64,000 bases of DNA from Bifidobacterium sp. ESL0728 (GTDB lineage: Bacteria; Actinomycetota; Actinomycetes; Actinomycetales; Bifidobacteriaceae): NCBI RefSeq assembly GCF_029392015.1, contig NZ_CP113925.1, positions 1,364,001 through 1,428,000 on the forward strand. Reading direction: 5' to 3'. Positions 12,831 through 48,873 of the stretch are shown here, in pieces (positions within the stretch are counted from its first letter, which is position 1; each line of letters begins with the position of its first letter). A program made the translations under genes and the position numbers. The notes below the pieces were generated by a model. That model did no database searches. It saw only the letters and a list, made by a program, of their open reading frames with translations, and was not told where the DNA came from.

Positions 12831-13790
12831 ATGGCAGAAAATCGCATCAACGTCGGGCAAAGCGACCTCAAGGTCTTCCCACTGGTGCTCGGCGGCAACA
12901 CCTTCGGCTGGACCAGCGACGACAAGACCAGCGACGCCGTGCTCGACAAGTACGTCGACGCCGGCGGCAATTTCGTGGATACGGCCGACGTCTATTCGGC
13001 TTGGGTTCCCGGCCATTCGGGCGGCGAATCCGAAATCGTGCTCGGCCGTTGGCTGGCAACCCGCAAAAACCGCAATGACATGGTCATCGCCACCAAGGTG
13101 AGCGAACATCCTCAATATCCCGGACTCTCCGCCAAGAACATCGCTGCGGCCGTCGATGAGTCGCTGCTGAGGGTCGGAACCGATTACATCGACCTTTATT
13201 ACGCGCATTTCGACCATAAGGATACCCCGCTGGAAGAGACCGTCGCCGCCTTCGACAAGCTGGTCAAATCCGGCAAGGTCCGCGCCATCGGCATTTCCAA
13301 CTTTTCGGCCGACCGCATCGAGGAATGGCTCAAAATCGCCCGCGAGAACGGTTACACGCTGCCCGTCGCCCTCGAACCGCAATACAATCTCGTCTCCCGA
13401 GGCAACTACGAGAAGACGCTGGCCCCCGTCGCCAAGCGCGAGCAGCTTTCCGTATTTCCCTACTTCGCTCTGGCTGCGGGATTCCTGACCGGCAAGTACC
13501 GTTCGGCCGCGGACGCCGAGGGTAAGGCACGTCAAGGCATGGTCGCTGATTACCTCACGCCCGACGGCTTCGCGCTGATCGATGCGCTCGACAAAGTGGC
13601 CAAAGCCCACAACGTCGCCATCGCCACGGTCTCGCTGGCTTGGCTGCGCCATCGTCCGCAGGTCGCCGCACCAATCGTCTCTGCCCGTATCCCGGAGCAA
13701 CTGCCGGACCTGCTGGCTTCCAGCACACTCACACTGAGCGATGCCGAGGTCGAAGCGCTCAACAAGGCCTCCGAGCCTTTCGCCAAGTAA
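12831..13790 (+). CDS. Aldo/keto reductase
   Basis: The product has 319 residues with the (beta/alpha)8 AKR fold. The catalytic Asp and Tyr are in GGNFVDTADVYS, the Lys in MVIATKVSEH, and the position usually taken by His falls in DLYYAHFDH. The NADPH-binding end shows APIVSARIPEQLPDLLAS. AKRs reduce aldehydes or ketones to alcohols with NADPH. The substrate is not predictable. GAAAGGAATC precedes the ATG. The 3' end runs directly into the inverted-box array at 13818. Confidence 0.92.
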   Translation: MAENRINVGQSDLKVFPLVLGGNTFGWTSDDKTSDAVLDKYVDAGGNFVDTADVYSAWVPGHSGGESEIVLGRWLATRKNRNDMVIATKVSEHPQYPGLSAKNIAAAVDESLLRVGTDYIDLYYAHFDHKDTPLEETVAAFDKLVKSGKVRAIGISNFSADRIEEWLKIARENGYTLPVALEPQYNLVSRGNYEKTLAPVAKREQLSVFPYFALAAGFLTGKYRSAADAEGKARQGMVADYLTPDGFALIDALDKVAKAHNVAIATVSLAWLRHRPQVAAPIVSARIPEQLPDLLASSTLTLSDAEVEALNKASEPFAK

Positions 13791-13813: not shown

Positions 13814-13863
13814 AAATGTGATTATCTCTGTACTTTTTACGAAATGCAGAGATAATCACATTT
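13814..13863 (+). terminator. Perfect 17-bp hairpin at the 3' end of the aldo/keto reductase gene
   Basis: AAATGTGATTATCTCTG and its exact complement enclose a 16-base loop. A short T run follows the right arm. It can serve as a terminator for the upstream gene, yet it is also the first box pair of the 61-bp array described next. Confidence 0.6.
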
Positions 13864-13980
13864 TTCACGTCTTTTCCGTTATTAGCTCTGTATCCAGAAT
13901 CCTTTCGCAAAGCTAATCACACTTTGAGGGCAAATTTCGTGATTGACTCCGCAACTTTGACGATATGCAAAGTTAGCCAC
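13818..13980. repeat. Array of three 60-61 bp units with alternating inverted 15-bp boxes (array 1)
   Basis: Box b copies start at 13818 (GTGATTATCTCTGTA), 13878 and 13939. Box a copies, their inverse complement, start at 13845 (TGCAGAGATAATCAC), 13906 and 13966. The b-to-a spacer is 12-13 bp and the a-to-b spacer is 18 bp throughout, while the spacer sequences differ. The first pair is perfect and the later pairs are degenerate. It occupies the gap between the reductase and the convergent glycosidase. A second array with the same geometry lies at 40824-40988. I know of no named family that fits. Confidence 0.75.
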
Positions 13981-14014: not shown

Positions 14015-15310
14015 TCACACCGCATGATGCTCGACATGGAGCAGGGGTACGGAGGATTCGTCTTCGTAGATGTCAGAGTGCGGAGTCGAGTCTAGATTCA
14101 TGTCGATATGGAGCTTGGCACTGCCGTCACGAGCTTTGAGGTCATAGGCATAATGGCGGTTTTCGAGCAAGGTCGGCTCCGTGGTGGCGTCAACCATCCA
14201 CGGACGCGCACTTCTGATTGCGGCCAATTGACCGGTGAGCCGGTACATCCATTCGCCGTCAAGCGACAGGTTTTCCGGCGTTTCCGGGTATTCGGGACGA
14301 ACGATGTCGTCGCCGCCGACCCCATCGGTTTTGTCACCCAACATGGCTCGCTCATCGCCGTAATAGACCGAGGGCGTGCCGCCGACCGTGAAGAGGATCA
14401 CAGCAGCCAGCGCAAGCTTTTCCTCGTCCTGGATTTGGCTGGCAATCCTGGTGACGTCGTGGTTGCCAATGAACGTCTGTGGCGTAAAGGTCTCCAGGAA
14501 CGTGTCGTGACGCTTCAGACACCAATCAAGTTCGAAGAAATTCGCTTCCTTGAGACTGCTCCAGATCGCTTTCCACAGCTCATACTGGGTGACGGTGTCA
14601 ATGGTCGAATCACGTACAAACTGCGGATAATCACCATGAATGGCTTCGCCTATGAACCACGCATCCGGAATTTCACGGCGCACACGAGGCAACACCTTGG
14701 CCCAGAAAGCAGACGGCACCGTCGTGGCCGCGTCCAGACGCCAGGCATCCACGCCACGGCGCATCCAATGAGTCATTACATCGGTCACCAGATCGGCGAC
14801 CCGAGACGCCTCATGGTTGAAGGCGGGAAGAATCGCATGGCCTTCGAAATTCTTATAATCGAGCGTTCCGTCTTCGGCCGAAAAGAAGCTGAACATGTCA
14901 TCGCTATTATGCCCGACGGACTTTCCGGCTTCAACCTCGCCTTCCGCCCGTTTGAGTTCACGCTGGAACTCCGGGAAATCCCTGCCGACGTGATTGAAAA
15001 CGCCGTCCAGCATCAACGCGATTCCGCGTTGATGGCAAGCCGCCACCAAACGGTCGAATGCCTCGTCGTCACCGAGTCTGGGGTCGATCTTGTAAAAATC
15101 GATGGTGTCGTAACCATGGGTGTCGGAATCGAAAATCGGGCCAAGTAAAAGTCCGTCGCAGCCCATGCCTTTCATGTAATCCAGCCAGTTGATCAGACGA
15201 TCAAGCCTGGGGGTCTTCAGACGTTGCGCATCGGATTGCGGGCGCACCGGAGCCCCGCAGAAGCCCAAAGGATACACCTGCCACCAGATCCTACGGCTCA
15301 TTTCGTTCAT
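14015..15310 (-). CDS. GH13 alpha-amylase family glycosidase
   Basis: This is a 431-residue TIM-barrel enzyme of glycoside hydrolase family 13. Signatures: LMLDGVFNHVG (region I), DAWRLDAATT with the nucleophile Asp (region II), FIGEAIHGD with the acid/base Glu (region III), and FIGNHDVTR with the transition-state Asp (region IV). It should cleave or transfer alpha-glucosyl linkages in oligosaccharides in the cytoplasm, since no signal peptide is visible. I use the ATG at 15310, preceded by GAGG at good spacing. An in-frame ATG at 15358 would add 16 residues. The exact subfamily is undecided. Confidence 0.88.
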   Translation of the reverse strand: MNEMSRRIWWQVYPLGFCGAPVRPQSDAQRLKTPRLDRLINWLDYMKGMGCDGLLLGPIFDSDTHGYDTIDFYKIDPRLGDDEAFDRLVAACHQRGIALMLDGVFNHVGRDFPEFQRELKRAEGEVEAGKSVGHNSDDMFSFFSAEDGTLDYKNFEGHAILPAFNHEASRVADLVTDVMTHWMRRGVDAWRLDAATTVPSAFWAKVLPRVRREIPDAWFIGEAIHGDYPQFVRDSTIDTVTQYELWKAIWSSLKEANFFELDWCLKRHDTFLETFTPQTFIGNHDVTRIASQIQDEEKLALAAVILFTVGGTPSVYYGDERAMLGDKTDGVGGDDIVRPEYPETPENLSLDGEWMYRLTGQLAAIRSARPWMVDATTEPTLLENRHYAYDLKARDGSAKLHIDMNLDSTPHSDIYEDESSVPLLHVEHHAV

Positions 15311-15640
15311 CTTATGCCTCGTTTCCTGCCAGGCCCGCGTCATTCTAGTTTCCAGCATTCAACTTTACCAGCAGAAAGCCACGTAAACGGCTGCTTCATC
15401 CGGATTTACCATGTAGCCGATTGCGTTTGCGACATGCGACCCGAATAACAAAACCACATGTTCCATGGCCTGGTAGCAGAGATTTTTCTTTTGAAAATGT
15501 AATAGTGATAAATGTATCCGAAACATAACGAAAGCCGCCGAAACGCTTCTTGCGCGATGGCGGCTTTCATCTTGCTGCAGGAGCCTCAAACCGATATCAC
15601 ATCATGTTTGAAGCCCTACCCATCAGCAGAAACTTCGTTT
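15311..15640. other. Intergenic region containing one terminator
   Basis: The gap lies between the glycosidase start and the end of the Lys/Ala-rich small gene. Apart from the hairpin at 15530-15568 I see only AT-rich sequence that may hold the glycosidase promoter. Confidence 0.4.
15530..15568 (-). terminator. Intrinsic terminator candidate of the Lys/Ala-rich small gene
   Basis: The 10-bp perfect stem GAAAGCCGCC/GGCGGCTTTC lies about 70 bases past the stop at 15641 in minus orientation. Its A/T-flanked arms fit a terminator. Confidence 0.7.
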
Positions 15641-32754: not shown

Positions 32755-35037
32755 TTACTCCTCTTCGCCGGACTCGTCTTTTTCGTCGGCGACTTCCTGT
32801 TTGACAGCGGGATCAGCGGAATCTTCGGCACCCTCAGCGGTTTCCTCGGCAGGCAACTCGTTCTCGTCGCCGTCGGCATCTCCTTCGGTTTCCGCTTCGT
32901 CATCCTCGCCGACCTCGCCTTGCGCATCCTGATCGGCAACGGAGTTCGCAGAATCATCTGGTTCGCCGGATTCGTTGACGATTTCGGTGCTGTCGGCGTT
33001 TTCCTTGGCCGTAGCTTCGGCGCTTTCCTGCGCTTCCGGTGTCTCTGGGTCGAGAGCGGACTGGGACTGATCGTCGAGATCGGCATCGGTATCCAACTCT
33101 TCGCCTACTTCCTCATCGGATTCGGCATCCGCTTTGTCGGTGTCGTCTTCGTCCGCATTCCTGCCCGCATCATCTGAACCGTCTTTATCAGAGTATTCAG
33201 ACCCGGAATCATCCGAATCCTCAGAATCTTGAGAATCCGAATCACCGTCGTAATCCTCGTCATCCTCATAGGGATCGGGCGCATACTGCGCATCATCCTC
33301 CGTAATCCCCAGTTCTTCCATCATGTCGTCGGGCAGACGCTCGAGGTCGTAGTCGATGACCACTTCGTCGGCATCTTCATCGTCCTCGTCTTCGTCAGCA
33401 TACTTGTTTTCAAGCTGCTCGATGGTGGTGTCGAGGTCGGCTGCCTCGTCTCCGCGTCCGCCTTCTTCGAGGAAGTACTGCTCGGCCTGCAGCGCACGCA
33501 TACGGTAGGCTCCGGGAAGTCCCTTGGTACCTGCCAGCTTGCTGACCACGTCAACGGCCTTGTCCCAAAGACCCAGATCTCCCAGCGCTCCGGCATAGAC
33601 CAGGAACATCTCGGCCTTGGATTCGCCGGTAAGTTGCTTGGCGTCGTCGGACATCGCCATCTCGATGGCACGTTTCGGGTTGCCCAAGCCGCGTTCGCAG
33701 TCGGCGATGAACGGCAGATAATCGTTGTAGCCGTTCATACGGTGTGCTGTGCGGAATTCCTTCAGCGCAGTCTTGTAATCGCCCTGACGGTAGGCGATGA
33801 ACGCCAGAGTCTCACGTGAGAAATCAATGCGGGAGGCCTGGTGCGCCACCCACTCGGCGTGGTCACGGGCGGCCTTCGGGTCGCTTTCCTCAAGCGAATA
33901 AGCGGCGAGAATGTGCAGGCCGATGTTCTCGGCGTGCTCCTTGGAAAGTCCCCTCAGGCGTTCCTTCTCGTCCTTGGAGAGCATCGACCATTCCATGCCT
34001 TTGGGCATGCGCGGCTCGCCGGGGCGACGGTCGGTATACGGGTTCTGCGAGGGGAACGAGACCGTGCCATCGGAATTGCGGCGCGGGCCGTTGTGCATGT
34101 ATTCTTCGCGACCATCATTATGAAAACCGCCACGGCGGTCATCACGTCGGTCATCGCGGTGATTGTTGTAGCTTCTGTATCCACCGCGTTCGCCGTCTCG
34201 GCGGTCGTCACGGTGGAAGTCACGACGATCATTGCCATGGGAGTTGTAGCCGCCCCTACGGTCATTGTTGCGACGGAAATCACGGCTGTCGCCGTCACGA
34301 CGATCATTGCCACGGTATCCCCCGCGTCGATCGTCGTCATGCCCACGATAGCCGCCAGAACGATAGCCGCCGCGACGATCATCATTGCGATGGAAGTCCC
34401 TGCGATCGTCTTCCCCGCGATAACCGCCACGACGATCGTCATCGTGCCGGTATCCGCCTTTGTGGAAGTCACGACGGTCGCCATCCTTGTGGAAATCACG
34501 CCTGTCATCACGATGGAAATCCCTGCGGTCCCCGTCACGATGGAAGTCGCGGCGATCACTGCCGCCGCGATAGCCGCCGCGTTCGCCGTCACGGTGGAAA
34601 TCACGATGCCCGCCACCGTTGCCGCGGTAGCCGCCGCCACGTCGATCGTCGTCATGCCCACGATATCCGCCGGAACGGTAACCACCACGACGGTCGTCGC
34701 TGCGATGGAAGTCCCTGCGATCGTCGCTTCCGCGGTAGCCGCCGCGTTCGCCGTCGCGGTGGAAATCGCGACGATCCCCGTCGCCGTGTCCGCGGTAACC
34801 GCCACGTTCGCCGTCACGGCGATCATCACGATGGAAGTCGCGGTGTCCACCGTTGCCGCGGTATCCGCCGCCACGCCTGTCGTCATCATGCCCGCGATAT
34901 CCGCCGTGTCCACCCTTGTGGAATCCACCGTGGTTGTTGCCGCGATACCCGCCGTGACCTCGATAGCCGCCACCTGAACGGGACGAACCGTGACCGTATG
35001 AATTGCCGTCGCGGTTGCCGCGCTGTTCTTCTGCCAT
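32755..35037 (-). CDS. RGG/DRR-repeat protein with TPR-like centre and acidic tail
   Basis: This 760-residue protein has three parts. Residues 1-330 are Gly/Arg/Asp/His/Tyr-rich repeats (GGYRGHDDDRRGGGYRGNG, RRDFHRD) resembling RNA-binding RGG regions. Residues about 350-560 are helical and TPR-like (HILAAYSLEESDPKAARDHA, FIAYRQGDYKTALKEFRTAH). The last 190 residues are almost all Asp, Glu and Ser. AAAAGG precedes the ATG. The function is unknown. Binding RNA or ribosomes is inference. The N-terminal repeat block has a near-regular DNA period, which invites length variation. Confidence 0.8.
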   Translation of the reverse strand: MAEEQRGNRDGNSYGHGSSRSGGGYRGHGGYRGNNHGGFHKGGHGGYRGHDDDRRGGGYRGNGGHRDFHRDDRRDGERGGYRGHGDGDRRDFHRDGERGGYRGSDDRRDFHRSDDRRGGYRSGGYRGHDDDRRGGGYRGNGGGHRDFHRDGERGGYRGGSDRRDFHRDGDRRDFHRDDRRDFHKDGDRRDFHKGGYRHDDDRRGGYRGEDDRRDFHRNDDRRGGYRSGGYRGHDDDRRGGYRGNDRRDGDSRDFRRNNDRRGGYNSHGNDRRDFHRDDRRDGERGGYRSYNNHRDDRRDDRRGGFHNDGREEYMHNGPRRNSDGTVSFPSQNPYTDRRPGEPRMPKGMEWSMLSKDEKERLRGLSKEHAENIGLHILAAYSLEESDPKAARDHAEWVAHQASRIDFSRETLAFIAYRQGDYKTALKEFRTAHRMNGYNDYLPFIADCERGLGNPKRAIEMAMSDDAKQLTGESKAEMFLVYAGALGDLGLWDKAVDVVSKLAGTKGLPGAYRMRALQAEQYFLEEGGRGDEAADLDTTIEQLENKYADEDEDDEDADEVVIDYDLERLPDDMMEELGITEDDAQYAPDPYEDDEDYDGDSDSQDSEDSDDSGSEYSDKDGSDDAGRNADEDDTDKADAESDEEVGEELDTDADLDDQSQSALDPETPEAQESAEATAKENADSTEIVNESGEPDDSANSVADQDAQGEVGEDDEAETEGDADGDENELPAEETAEGAEDSADPAVKQEVADEKDESGEEE

Positions 35038-39443: not shown

Positions 39444-40682
39444 TTATTCGACGGAGTTGTCCGGGACTTCGATACCATTGCCGAATTTGACGTCGCGAGC
39501 GGCGGCCACCTTGTCGGGCAGACCGTAGATCGAGATGAATCCGTTGGAAGCGTTCTGGTCGTAGGTGTCGCCGGAATCGTAGGTGGCGAGCTTGTAGTCG
39601 TAGAGCGAAGAATCGCTGCGGCGGCCGGTGACCACGGCGCGGCCTCCGTGCATGACCATACGGATTTCGCCGGAAACATAGCGCTGCGTGTCTTCGATGA
39701 AGGCGTTCAAGGAGCGGACCGCAGGCGAGAACCATTGGGCGTCGTAGACCAGCTCGGCCCAACGCTTGTCGATGTCGCGTTTGATGCGGTGCTGTTCGCG
39801 TTCGAGGCAGCAGTTCTCAAGCTCTTCGTGCGCGGCAATGAGCGCCACCGCACCAGGTGCTTCATAGAGTTCACGGGATTTGATGCCGACCAGACGGTCT
39901 TCAATCAGGTCGATGCGGCCGATGCCCTGGGCTCCGGCGCGGCGGTTCATCTCTTCGATGGCCTGCAGCGGGGTGACATCCTTGCCGTCGATCTTCACCG
40001 GCACGCCCTGCTTGAATTCGATGACGACCTCATCTTCGACAGGTGGGAAGGCCGGATCGTCGGTGTAGGTATAGCAGTCCTTGGTCGGTCCGTTCCACGG
40101 GTCTTCGAGGAAGCCGGTTTCAATGGCGCGGCCCCAGACGTTCTGATCGATGGAATACGGGCTCTTTTCGGTCTGGGTGATGGGCAGCTTGTGATCCTTG
40201 GCGAACTGGATCTCGACGTCGCGGGTCAGAGAAAGATCGCGAATCGGGCTGATGGCCTTAAGATTCGGGTCGATGGAGGCGATGGAGACCTCGAAACGCA
40301 CCTGGTCGTTACCCTTGCCGGTGCAGCCGTGCGAAATCGTGTCGGCGCCGAACTGGTGGGCGGCACGCACGAGATGCTTGGAGATCAAAGGCCTGGAAAT
40401 GGCGGAAACCAGAGGATAGACACCTTCGTACTTGGCGTTGGCCTTCAACGCCAGCATGCAGTATTCCTTGGCGAATTCCTCACGTGCATCGACGACATAC
40501 GCTTCCACCGCACCACAGGCCAGCGCGCGCTGACGAATGGTTTCAAGGCTTTCGCCACCCTGACCAACGTCCAAGGAAACAGCGACGACGTCTTTGCCTG
40601 TGCGCTCCTTCAAGTACGGAATCGCCACGGAAGTGTCAAGACCTCCGGAATATGCGAGTACGATGCGGTTCTTATCGCTCAT
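39444..40682 (-). CDS. argG: Argininosuccinate synthase
   Basis: The product has 412 residues. The ATP-pyrophosphatase P-loop is [14 protein letters not shown] near residue 9, followed by [15 protein letters not shown] and [14 protein letters not shown]. It condenses citrulline with aspartate. The gene has its own upstream region with candidate ARG boxes and probably starts a separate transcript from argR. Confidence 0.97.
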
Positions 40683-40703
40683 GACAGCCCTTTCTTCAAA
40701 ACT

Positions 40704-40738
40704 TTATACAATATATATACGCCTTTATGTATACATAT
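40704..40738 (-). promoter_or_regulatory. Candidate ARG boxes upstream of argG
   Basis: Two AT-rich palindromes lie 20-55 bases upstream of the argG start: TTATACAATATATATACG and TTATGTATACATAT. They resemble the site upstream of argC (ATGTATACTTATACAT) and fit ArgR operators in general form. Inference, since the exact bifidobacterial consensus is not computed here. Confidence 0.6.
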
Positions 40739-40823
40739 TCAATTTATGGACGGAAACGTCCACAATGCGGGATACAAGCCACACACGCACAGCCTATCCG
40801 AACGGACACCCACACTCAATTCC

Positions 40824-40988
40824 GTGATTTTCCCTGCACTTCGAATCAGAATGCAGAGATAATCACACTTTCCGGCCGTATCCCGTGATTAACTCTGCAC
40901 CAAACGCCTGTATACAGAGACAATCACCCTTCATGGCCATTTTTTCTGATTTTCTCTGCACGCGCCCATCCCGTACAGAAAAAATCAC
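40824..40988. repeat. Array of three 61-bp units with alternating inverted 15-bp boxes (array 2)
   Basis: Box b starts at 40824 (GTGATTTTCCCTGCA), 40885 (GTGATTAACTCTGCA) and 40946 (CTGATTTTCTCTGCA). Box a starts at 40852 (TGCAGAGATAATCAC), 40913 (TACAGAGACAATCAC) and 40974 (TACAGAAAAAATCAC). Each box recurs every 61 bp, with 13 and 18 bp between neighbours. Spacer sequences differ from those of array 1 at 13818, but their lengths match. Confidence 0.8.
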
Positions 40989-41046
40989 TCCTTGAGCAAA
41001 TCAGCTATCCCCTCACGAAAACTTTTGCCATGCAATGGCTTTTGTA

Positions 41047-41655
41047 TCAGGCACCTTGGTGCTGCCCACGCGAAACAATGTCAAGCAGCCATTGCATGCG
41101 CGTCACGGCGGCATCGTCATCATCGCAAACCAACAACACCGTATCGTCGCCGGCGACCGTGCCCAGGATTCCCTCGATGGGCTGCTTGTCAATAACGCTT
41201 GCCATGTATTGCGCAGCGCCGGACGGGGTGTGCACGATGACCAGATTTCGCGCCGCGGCCGCAGAGGTGATCAACCCCGAAAGCCCTCGCGAAAGCTGCT
41301 GGTCGATTTTTTCAGCCGTGGCGTCGTCGAATTCGGGCTCGACACCCAGCGTATAAGCCATTTCCCCGGTTTTAAGCCGTGTCTTCACCGCCTTCATCTC
41401 ATCAAGGTCACGGCTCAGCGTAGCCTGGGTGACTTCGATGCCACGATCGGCAAGCAGTTCAAGCAGCTGCCCTTGTGAGGAGACCACCGAGTTGGAAAGG
41501 ATCTCCTGAATAACGCTCAGACGGGCAGTCCTGTTCGTCGGATGCTGCAACTTGGTCTCCGAGCCTTGCTCTCCACCGTTTGGCACAGTTCCGGCAACAT
41601 CAGACGAATCATAATTGATATCGGCGGTAATATCGCTTTCCTCAGTATCGTTCAT
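41047..41655 (-). CDS. argR: Arginine repressor ArgR
   Basis: The product has 202 residues. The winged-helix part is [20 protein letters not shown] then [20 protein letters not shown]. The C-terminal arginine-binding oligomerisation domain includes [21 protein letters not shown] disordered, acidic N-terminal extension of about 40 residues is unusual in length. Its ATG overlaps the argF stop in ATGA. It should sense arginine and repress the surrounding arg genes. Confidence 0.94.
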
Positions 41656-48009: not shown

Positions 48010-48873
48010 CTAGGCACTCACTGAACCGTCACTGCCGGAACCACCGGATCCGGAACCATATTGATTCATCAACTGCTGTGAGAAATCGTTAAGATTGATA
48101 CCTTTGGAAAACAGCCATAGCTCGAAGACTGTCGCGATGACGCCGAGTACCATGCACACGGTGGCCACCGCGAACCCTTTCATATGGTATTTCTTGGTGC
48201 GCCACATGGAAACCGCACCGGTAATGGCAGGCAGGAACGTAATCGGCAGAAACAGAAGGATAATCGAAAGAATCGCCATCGGATCCCAATGTCCTTTAAG
48301 TGGGTTCTGGACGGGATCGTTCATATCAACGCCGTTGCGCATATCCGGCTGATATCCGGGTGATCCCGGCTCCCCTGGCATGACCGGGCCGTTGTTGTAC
48401 GGCTGTCCGTTGTTGTACGGCTGCCCATATGGGCTGTTGGGATTGTTGCCATAACCTCCAGGTATCTGGTTAGGGCCGCCGTAAGGGGCATTGCGCTGAT
48501 TGCCTTGATAGGGGCCCACGGCATTGCCGTATCCCCCGCCCATTTGCGGGTCATATTGCCTGTTCTGAGCATTCATTGGCGTGTTCTGATTTTTTGGTTT
48601 CTCTTCAGGCTTGCCATAGACGTAGGGATTGTATTGCGAAGGGAATTGGCTGGCCATGGCCCCATATTCCGGGACTTTCATCTGACCGTATTGGGGCTGT
48701 GATGGATTCGCACCGCTGGAAGCAGAAGCTGTATTCCGCGCCTCGGTACCTCGCGTGCCTTGCGAATCCTCGGATGACGGATGCTCCGGAACCTGACCCA
48801 TCGGAGCCGTATTGGACGAGGGATCCTCACGTTGCCTGCCGTTCACATCGAACGGGTTTTGAGATTCATTCAT
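48010..48873 (-). CDS. Proline/Gly/Asn/Tyr-rich protein with C-terminal DUF4190-like membrane part
   Basis: The ATG at 48873 has GGAG six bases upstream. The first 190 residues are low complexity with PYGQPYNNGQPYNNG and similar repeats. Two hydrophobic helices follow (MAILSIILLFLPITFLPAI and FAVATVCMVLGVIATVFEL), joined by a basic loop, as in DUF4190 proteins. A cytoplasmic Pro-rich tail and membrane anchor are inferred. The function is unknown. Confidence 0.75.
   Translation of the reverse strand: MNESQNPFDVNGRQREDPSSNTAPMGQVPEHPSSEDSQGTRGTEARNTASASSGANPSQPQYGQMKVPEYGAMASQFPSQYNPYVYGKPEEKPKNQNTPMNAQNRQYDPQMGGGYGNAVGPYQGNQRNAPYGGPNQIPGGYGNNPNSPYGQPYNNGQPYNNGPVMPGEPGSPGYQPDMRNGVDMNDPVQNPLKGHWDPMAILSIILLFLPITFLPAITGAVSMWRTKKYHMKGFAVATVCMVLGVIATVFELWLFSKGINLNDFSQQLMNQYGSGSGGSGSDGSVSA

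Follow-up and report, generated by a model that had tools for sequence, protein, structure and literature searches.

What kind of element is the array between argR and argG of Bifidobacterium sp. ESL0728, and is it held together by constraint, or by no more than chance or a shared origin with a second array of the same spacing nearby? Both arrays lie in one window, the whole stretch of 64,000 nucleotides that was analysed, taken from a genome of 2.59 Mb that is labelled G000 here. Array 2 (window 40824-40988) consists of six 15-bp boxes: b1 (GTGATTTTCCCTGCA, 40824-40838), b2 (40885-40899) and b3 (40946-40960) are on the plus strand and alternate with a1 (40852-40866), a2 (40913-40927) and a3 (40974-40988) on the minus strand. 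Box b of this family, termed F1, reads GTGATTnnCTCTGCA, and box a is its reverse complement; the steps of 28 and 33 bp leave spacers of 13 and 18 bp and give a period of 61 bp. Array 1 (13818-13980) has boxes as in array 2, with b at 13818, 13878 and 13939 and a at 13845, 13906 and 13966, in steps of 27 or 28 and 33 bp. The gene that we take to be argG (39444-40682, minus strand) has its start codon 141 bp from array 2, and the 3' end of what we take to be argR (41047-41655, minus strand) is 58 bp from it; array 1 starts 27 bp past the end of a gene taken to be aldo/keto-reductase-like (12831-13790, plus strand) and stops 34 bp before the end of a convergent gene taken to be alpha-amylase-like (14015-15358, minus strand). 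These identities rest on sequence, and for argR also on its neighbours, without a profile search.

A ruler score free of any motif model (six 15-mers set on the 28/61 ruler, with +-1 allowed; maximum 75) was 62 for array 2 (at 40824) and 58 for array 1 (at 13817). In 60 first-order Markov randomisations of the window it did not exceed 43 (mean 40.9), and a chance origin of the ruler in array 2 was rejected. The preliminary description, made from sequence alone, had given the six box positions of array 2, its 13- and 18-bp spacers and 61-bp period, its place in the argR-argG gap and the recurrence of its ruler at a second locus; all of these held, the placement by gene coordinates and the recurrence by the motif-free score. 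It had also suggested a comparison with any other arrays in the genome, among which arrays 1 and 2 proved to be two of nine in family F1. Elsewhere in the window, the ruler score reaches 46 at 34741, slightly over the random maximum, near a 12-bp tandem repeat (34730-34760), and a perfect 18-bp tandem repeat of 1.9 copies occupies 48389-48423.

Box families and their place in the genome

The nine F1 arrays were obtained by pattern search and with a covariance model, R1, trained on 15 windows, some of them overlapping, taken from eight F1 arrays. Eight of them are strong (about 675.4, 700.1, 702.1, 929.7, 1377.8 [array 1], 1404.8 [array 2], 1919.6 and 2338.0 kb) and one is weak (1218.9 kb). A second family, F2, which was first seen as weaker R1 matches, has the core GTGCTTTTC followed by nCACTG or nCCTCAG and a period of 62 bp. 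Model R2 returns 19 strong sites for it (E <= 2.3e-10), one of which, at 341.8 kb, carries a GTCGCA-type box; weaker R2 matches at 633.8, 716.8, 2056.8, 2219.8 and 2520.3 kb were left out of the 19. A single genome holds F1, F2 and the GTCGCA-type site together, and the constraint is not bound to the F1 box, as unlike box sequences share nearly the same spacing. Models R1, R2 and R3 (the last described below) were trained on part of the arrays they recover, and those matches are circular.

Of 42 steps from a to b in F2, 41 are of 27 bp, and the sole exception (17 bp) is about one helical turn shorter. Its half-boxes are of two kinds, X and Y. Across the 13/14-bp spacer they are unlike in 25 of 27 classed b-a pairs (YX 13, XY 12, XX 2), a count that leaves out eight of the 35 pairs that could not be classed as X or Y; across the 18-bp linker they are unlike in 15 of 31 classed pairs, so no rule holds there. 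The b-a segments of F2 carry direction: b-14-a is asymmetric, and both orientations are present.

All 27 arrays counted in this genome, from which the weak F1 array at 1218.9 kb was excluded, are intergenic by the calls of a home-made ORF scorer. As scored, 10 occupy convergent gaps, 16 co-directional gaps and one a divergent gap; the last has a tRNA-Thr on the minus strand at its right and so is also 3' of a gene, and one co-directional array follows a tRNA-Arg that the gene caller missed. Against a window background of four convergent among 44 gene pairs, the convergent excess gives a Fisher p of 0.006, or of 0.012 without the convergent case at 1470.8 kb, whose left neighbour is 2.2 kb off with no convincing gene between. 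Some convergent arrays fill their gap, with flank distances of 27/34 bp for array 1, 14/19 bp at 1536.9 kb and 17/0 bp at 1662.6 kb. The co-directional arrays lie at a median of 59.5 bp from the upstream gene end and 104 bp from the next start (14 of the 16, two being omitted), and 10 of the 14 are closer to the upstream gene end. The arrays are located 3' of genes.

Other Bifidobacterium genomes

With ESL0728 included, R1 has matches in 18 and R2 in 16 of 112 Bifidobacterium genomes, and several other words are set on nearly the same ruler. The period is 63 bp for GTGATATTCCGGCGGA in G037 and CGTCCTTAACTGCGCG in G040, 62 bp for CGTGACnGAC in G023, and 52 bp for GTTACTAACTCAG in G036, G077, G099 and G108. 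For GGTACTTTTCCCC (G016, G048, G053) it is 61 bp, made up without exception of 31- and 30-bp steps at the three loci that were read; these arrays are found around 1473-1638 of L147 (G053), L148 (G016) and L150 (G048). A joint model of six families, R3, added CGTCACTCTGTGCGCG, with a period of 63 bp, in G010, G035, G047 and G067, and further boxes, judged by eye, in G011, G021, G032, G076 and G102, those of G021 and G032 being less regular. R3 matches 26 of 189 genomes of the taxonomic family, training genomes included, and 25 of these are inside the genus; the lone match outside it, G155, is doubtful. R1, R2 and R3 together have matches in 32 of the 112 genus genomes and none in the other 80 (E 0.001), and stricter filters applied in searches covering more than 40 genomes. 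In several families the 16-18-bp linker tends to have GGCC at its centre, flanked by A/T tracts.

A strict F1 pattern run against the genomes of 84,980 species returned three stretches, all from Bifidobacterium sp. ESL0763, in a search from which records near the window's own were possibly excluded; ESL strains originate from bee guts. The array family is dispersed over scattered Bifidobacterium species, and the box sequence varies both between species and between arrays within one genome. Carriage by phage was considered and rejected: GAAAAGCAC-18-GTGCTTTTC occurs in two viral contigs, both with one identical lone hairpin, and the strict F1 pattern has no match in viral contigs.

At some orthologous places the box family itself differs. 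Three genes, named from their sequences as threonine aldolase, orn and rplJ, were followed. For threonine aldolase, 26 genomes were searched, 24 had the gene and the flanks of 23 were inspected (G023, in which it is split, was omitted). Its 3' side has F2 in G000, G084 and G089, F1 in G083, G086 and G093, F2 and then a GTTGCTTTTCTTCCTG box within one array in G087, short GTCGCA-type copies in G088, G090, G091 and G092, and a remnant in G082, with no such array in the remaining genomes of the 23. The G083 array is shorter than those of G086 and G093 by exactly one 61-bp unit. The array of G087 (L218) is a mosaic of two box families on nearly one ruler; in the same flank of G037 (L224), TCTTCAATCTGAGAGGCAG repeats both ways round, in a different inverted repeat cluster.

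The flanks of orn were inspected in 25 of the 26 genomes (G013 omitted). F2 is present 3' of it in G000, G082, G084, G087 and G089, the GTCGCA type in G091 and G092 and, decayed, in G088, TCTGCTTTTCAACGCA in G090 and G093, and CTGATTTTCATCGCA in G083 and G086 and, less well preserved, in G085; G053 and some other genomes that lack an array there have a short gap. Before rplJ, the GTCGCA type is found in G091 and G092 and F2 in G000. The rplJ stretch of G092 (L122, 6666-6921) is again a mosaic, in which the GTCGCA type is followed by F2-type boxes with the ruler nearly unchanged. Box type is partly common to several loci of one lineage (GTCGCA in G088, G091 and G092; F2 in G000, G084 and G089), and different types also occur at different loci of one genome, as in G083 and G086 (F1 at threonine aldolase and another at orn), G090 and G093. 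With several box types in one genome, it is not enough to suppose one protein and one word for each lineage.

Conservation of the boxes and the proposed explanation

The argR-argG region was aligned in 11 relatives. G086 has three units of the array, G083 two and G091 a decayed array; it is absent in the other eight, with no substitute by eye. Measured from argG, the boxes of G000, G086 and G083 lie at positions that differ by no more than 2 bp. In fixed registers, box identity for the pairs G000-G086, G000-G083 and G086-G083 is 79/90, 49/60 and 50/60 (82-88%), against 36/75, 16/44 and 23/44 in the in-register spacers (36-52%) and 130/188, 114/186 and 139/192 at argG four-fold sites (61-72%); the Fisher p of box against spacer is 2.9e-8, 4e-6 and 9.9e-4, respectively. 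A MAFFT alignment that these registers supersede gave 81% versus 52% for G000-G086, with G083 out of register. Recognition of boxes by their likeness to the consensus biases the comparison towards box identity. The unchanged spacing, with spacers that are 36-52% identical where a quarter is expected at random, indicates that the same arrays were kept in place. The preliminary description had named as the null that both arrays descend from a single, recently duplicated segment and have since only drifted neutrally; that null was run, and the greater identity of boxes than of spacers in the orthologous argR-argG arrays speaks against it. The claim of a constrained system, not chance, is supported, while the function of the arrays is still inferred and no binding protein has been found. 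At argR-argG, then, the boxes are conserved in place while the spacers drift; gene conversion remains a possible source of the box conservation.

In six F2 pairs at orn, boxes are 85-90% and spacers 71-81% identical, with p below 0.05 (uncorrected) in five of the six comparisons and 0.34 in one, and four-fold sites (66-83%) are near the spacer values. At the opp locus, G000 and G084 share 84% in boxes, 70% between boxes and 82% in the flanks, and the conservation of the flanks to the level of the boxes counts against box-specific constraint there. The threonine aldolase arrays of G000 compared with G084 and G089 show 76% in boxes and 64% between boxes, and were left out of the fixed-register comparison because the arrays are out of register.

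RNA folding of array 2 gives z of -7.0 and -9.2 for its two strands, and that of array 1 (plus strand) -5.5; strong folding is expected, because alternating inverted boxes must fold. Pairing in the F1 alignment reaches 83.5%, where shuffles average 84.4% (the other register: 84.8 against 85.0), and in the F2 alignment 82.7 against 84.4, with no covariation in either, although the rows include overlapping windows from single arrays. Across the 13/14-bp spacer of F2, pairing falls to 79.5 against 84.1 shuffled, with 500 of 500 shuffles equal or higher, because the half-boxes are of two unlike kinds. Boxes that are conserved singly, without covariation, fit double-stranded protein sites better than RNA hairpins. 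At the gathering score, Rfam recognises only two tRNAs in the window, and at nine array loci it gives only a tRNA piece and weak matches under that score; with no convincing match, a known structured RNA family was rejected as the identity of the arrays.

A scan limited to loops of 3-8 detected no intrinsic terminator (GC stem and T-run) inside array 2. Between array 2 and argR, a small hairpin with a T-run stands at 41027-41039 on the plus strand, the only terminator-like site by scan in 40600-41200. A T-run follows the GC core in F2 and in many modules of G007, a genome considered below, and a conserved T-run is absent from the F1, F3, F4 and F9 boxes. In the threonine aldolase gap, some genomes without an array there have a strong hairpin, with a stem of 16 bp in G085, 12 bp in G025 and G001 and 11 bp in G061, and with T's after the stem or at its end; the same search gave none in G013, G037 and G082, and hairpins without a T-run in G012, G048, G016, G053 and G040.

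Array 2 is one member of a dispersed BIME-like family, in which each 15-16-bp box is proposed to be recognised, as double-stranded DNA, by a sequence-specific protein; this recognition is an inference, and no partner has been identified. The reader of a given box may be one of a few proteins with different specificities that would bind cooperatively along the array, the box starts of an a-b pair being about 33 bp apart, near three helical turns, and proteins and sites are inferred to have changed together between lineages. Less securely, a filled array may form a boundary that would limit read-through, convergent transcription or the spread of supercoils, and since the array is symmetric on both strands, it could do so from either side. 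Taken whole, this explanation (BIME-like arrays as cooperative protein sites, with a boundary at gene 3' ends) is the best we have, and we think it slightly more likely to fail than to stand, the binding itself being inferred. The boxes as protein sites are better supported than the boundary role, and a selfish reading is not excluded. No candidate gene for the partner emerged from the neighbours of arrays in G084, G091, G092 (two loci) and G093, which look ordinary by eye, without a profile search. The presence of several box types in one genome weakens the main reading and strengthens its selfish rival.

That rival holds that the arrays are a selfish, REP/REPIN-like population, in which palindromic modules were copied into 3' intergenic space, where insertion is tolerated, by an unidentified enzyme other than a RAYT; the box families would be successive waves, and the arrays would resize by recombination between units. 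In its favour are the dispersal across the genome, the patchy presence at argR-argG, the several box types per genome with mixed-type arrays in G087 and G092, the asymmetric b-14-a segments in both orientations (YX 13, XY 12) and the 48-bp modules of G007, which in the stretches examined mostly stand alone. It is also favoured by the array of G083, which has lost exactly one 61-bp unit relative to G086 and G093, a change of copy number that could fit mobility too. Against it, no Y1_Tnp gene is found in G000 or G082-G093 (a test of that transposase family only), and at argR-argG the boxes are better conserved than spacers and four-fold sites, which is unexpected for a dead insertion. On balance we lean away from this reading without being able to dismiss it. 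The view that the arrays are RNA elements, hairpins transcribed at the 3' ends of messages where they would end transcription or shield the mRNA, draws on the strong folding, the 3' location, the T-run in F2 and many G007 modules, and the strong hairpins in the threonine aldolase gap of several species without an array there. It appears improbable, given the lack of covariation in the F1 and F2 alignments, the unlike F2 half-boxes in 25 of 27 pairs, the absence of a terminator-like site in array 2 by scan and of a conserved T-run in F1, F3, F4 and F9, and the array-free threonine aldolase gaps that have no hairpin (three genomes) or one without a T-run (five).

Two other explanations can be set aside almost completely. 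That arrays 1 and 2 are one recent duplicated segment under neutral drift would suit their similar boxes, but the family has nine arrays, with orthologues in other species whose boxes are conserved over spacers. That array 2 regulates the arginine operon locally, as a set of extended ArgR sites, would suit its position between argR and argG, but F1 boxes adjoin unrelated genes at eight other sites, and eight of the 11 aligned relatives keep argR-argG without the array. A bolder form of the protein-site explanation, to which we would give rather less than even credence, is a genus-wide system of unknown DNA-binding or DNA-cutting proteins co-evolving with their sites. Its unit would be a fixed 48-bp module (two inverted 15-16-bp arms with a centre of 16-18 bp), in many cases recurring every 61-63 bp, with the recognised word rewritten in one lineage after another, in some cases at unchanged places on the chromosome; the direction of the F2 b-14-a segments would suit a recombinase or a heterodimer.

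The function of REP-like dispersed palindromes is unsettled, because the roles of structure, mobility and binding are not easily told apart. In these arrays the word varies whereas ruler and locus are kept, and this points the search to the ruler and to a DNA-binding partner, in bacteria that are culturable, harmless and of wide interest. Rulers of 61-63 and 52 bp over unlike words also allow helical phasing on double-stranded DNA to be tested directly. Such an array family would also give a place to a B. animalis motif that was reported without explanation (PMC5217627).

Comparison with known systems

The closest likeness is to REP/BIME and REPIN elements. Like these, the arrays are made of short, dispersed palindromic elements that alternate in orientation and lie near 3' ends in convergent and co-directional gaps, and, as in REP/BIME, there are several sequence families, of which a genome can hold more than one. 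REPs are placed 3' of genes and belong to many sequence families in the description by Di Nocera and colleagues (PMC3733652). A REP unit is, however, a 20-40-bp GTAG-tagged hairpin, whereas a single 15-bp box is not self-palindromic and no GTAG is seen by eye in the F1 consensus; the arrays also differ in having two strict spacings and a box type that depends on the species at one locus. The gene for RAYT (Y1_Tnp, PF01797) has no match in G000 or in G082-G093, which rules against a RAYT-driven REPIN identity in these genomes. Y1_Tnp is present in seven of the 112 Bifidobacterium genomes (G016, G019, G033, G045, G060, G061 and G070), one of which, G016, bears arrays. For lack of self-palindromic tagged units and of RAYT, we call the arrays BIME-like and not BIME. 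The CGTC-tagged REPs (PMC3733652) are likewise dispersed palindromes without a known dedicated transposase, and CGTCCTTAACTGCGCG and CGTCACTCTGTGCGCG begin with CGTC. Stems of 8-9 bp and loops of mostly 4-5 nt characterise those elements, which come from five other phyla (PMC3733652), whereas the boxes of array 2 start with GTGATT or CTGATT and have spacers of 13 and 18; the main text of that paper mentions neither Bifidobacterium nor Gardnerella.

Within the genus, GGGACAG(N)15TGTCCC from Bifidobacterium animalis lactis AD011 was selected as a potential novel motif and is 95% intergenic (PMC5217627, Table 7). GGGACA-16-TGTCCC has 21 copies in G007 (1.93 Mb), which we infer to be B. animalis, and in the stretches read it is the core of a 48-bp module, TGCGTAAnnnGGGACA-16-TGTCCCnnnTTACGCA, mostly within TGCGTAAnnn...nnnTTACGCA. 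Its 48 bp equal the 15+18+15 module of the arrays described here, from which the G007 modules differ in being mostly single or loosely spaced, without tight 61-bp arrays. Several modules in L287-L291 of G007 resemble bidirectional terminators (A-tract, GC stem, T-tract). With bidirectional intrinsic terminators in general, the arrays share their position and, in some families, the A-tract, GC and T-tract; array 2, however, does not meet the criteria for a terminator by the scan, and pairing is not conserved beyond single boxes. They differ from a CRISPR array in that the repeats alternate in orientation and diverge and the spacers are only 13 and 18 bp long (cas genes were outside the test). 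The top-ranked results of the open-licence literature searched contain no description of the arrays in Bifidobacterium. Even without two of the features that define it, the arrays resemble a known kind of element, the REP/BIME.
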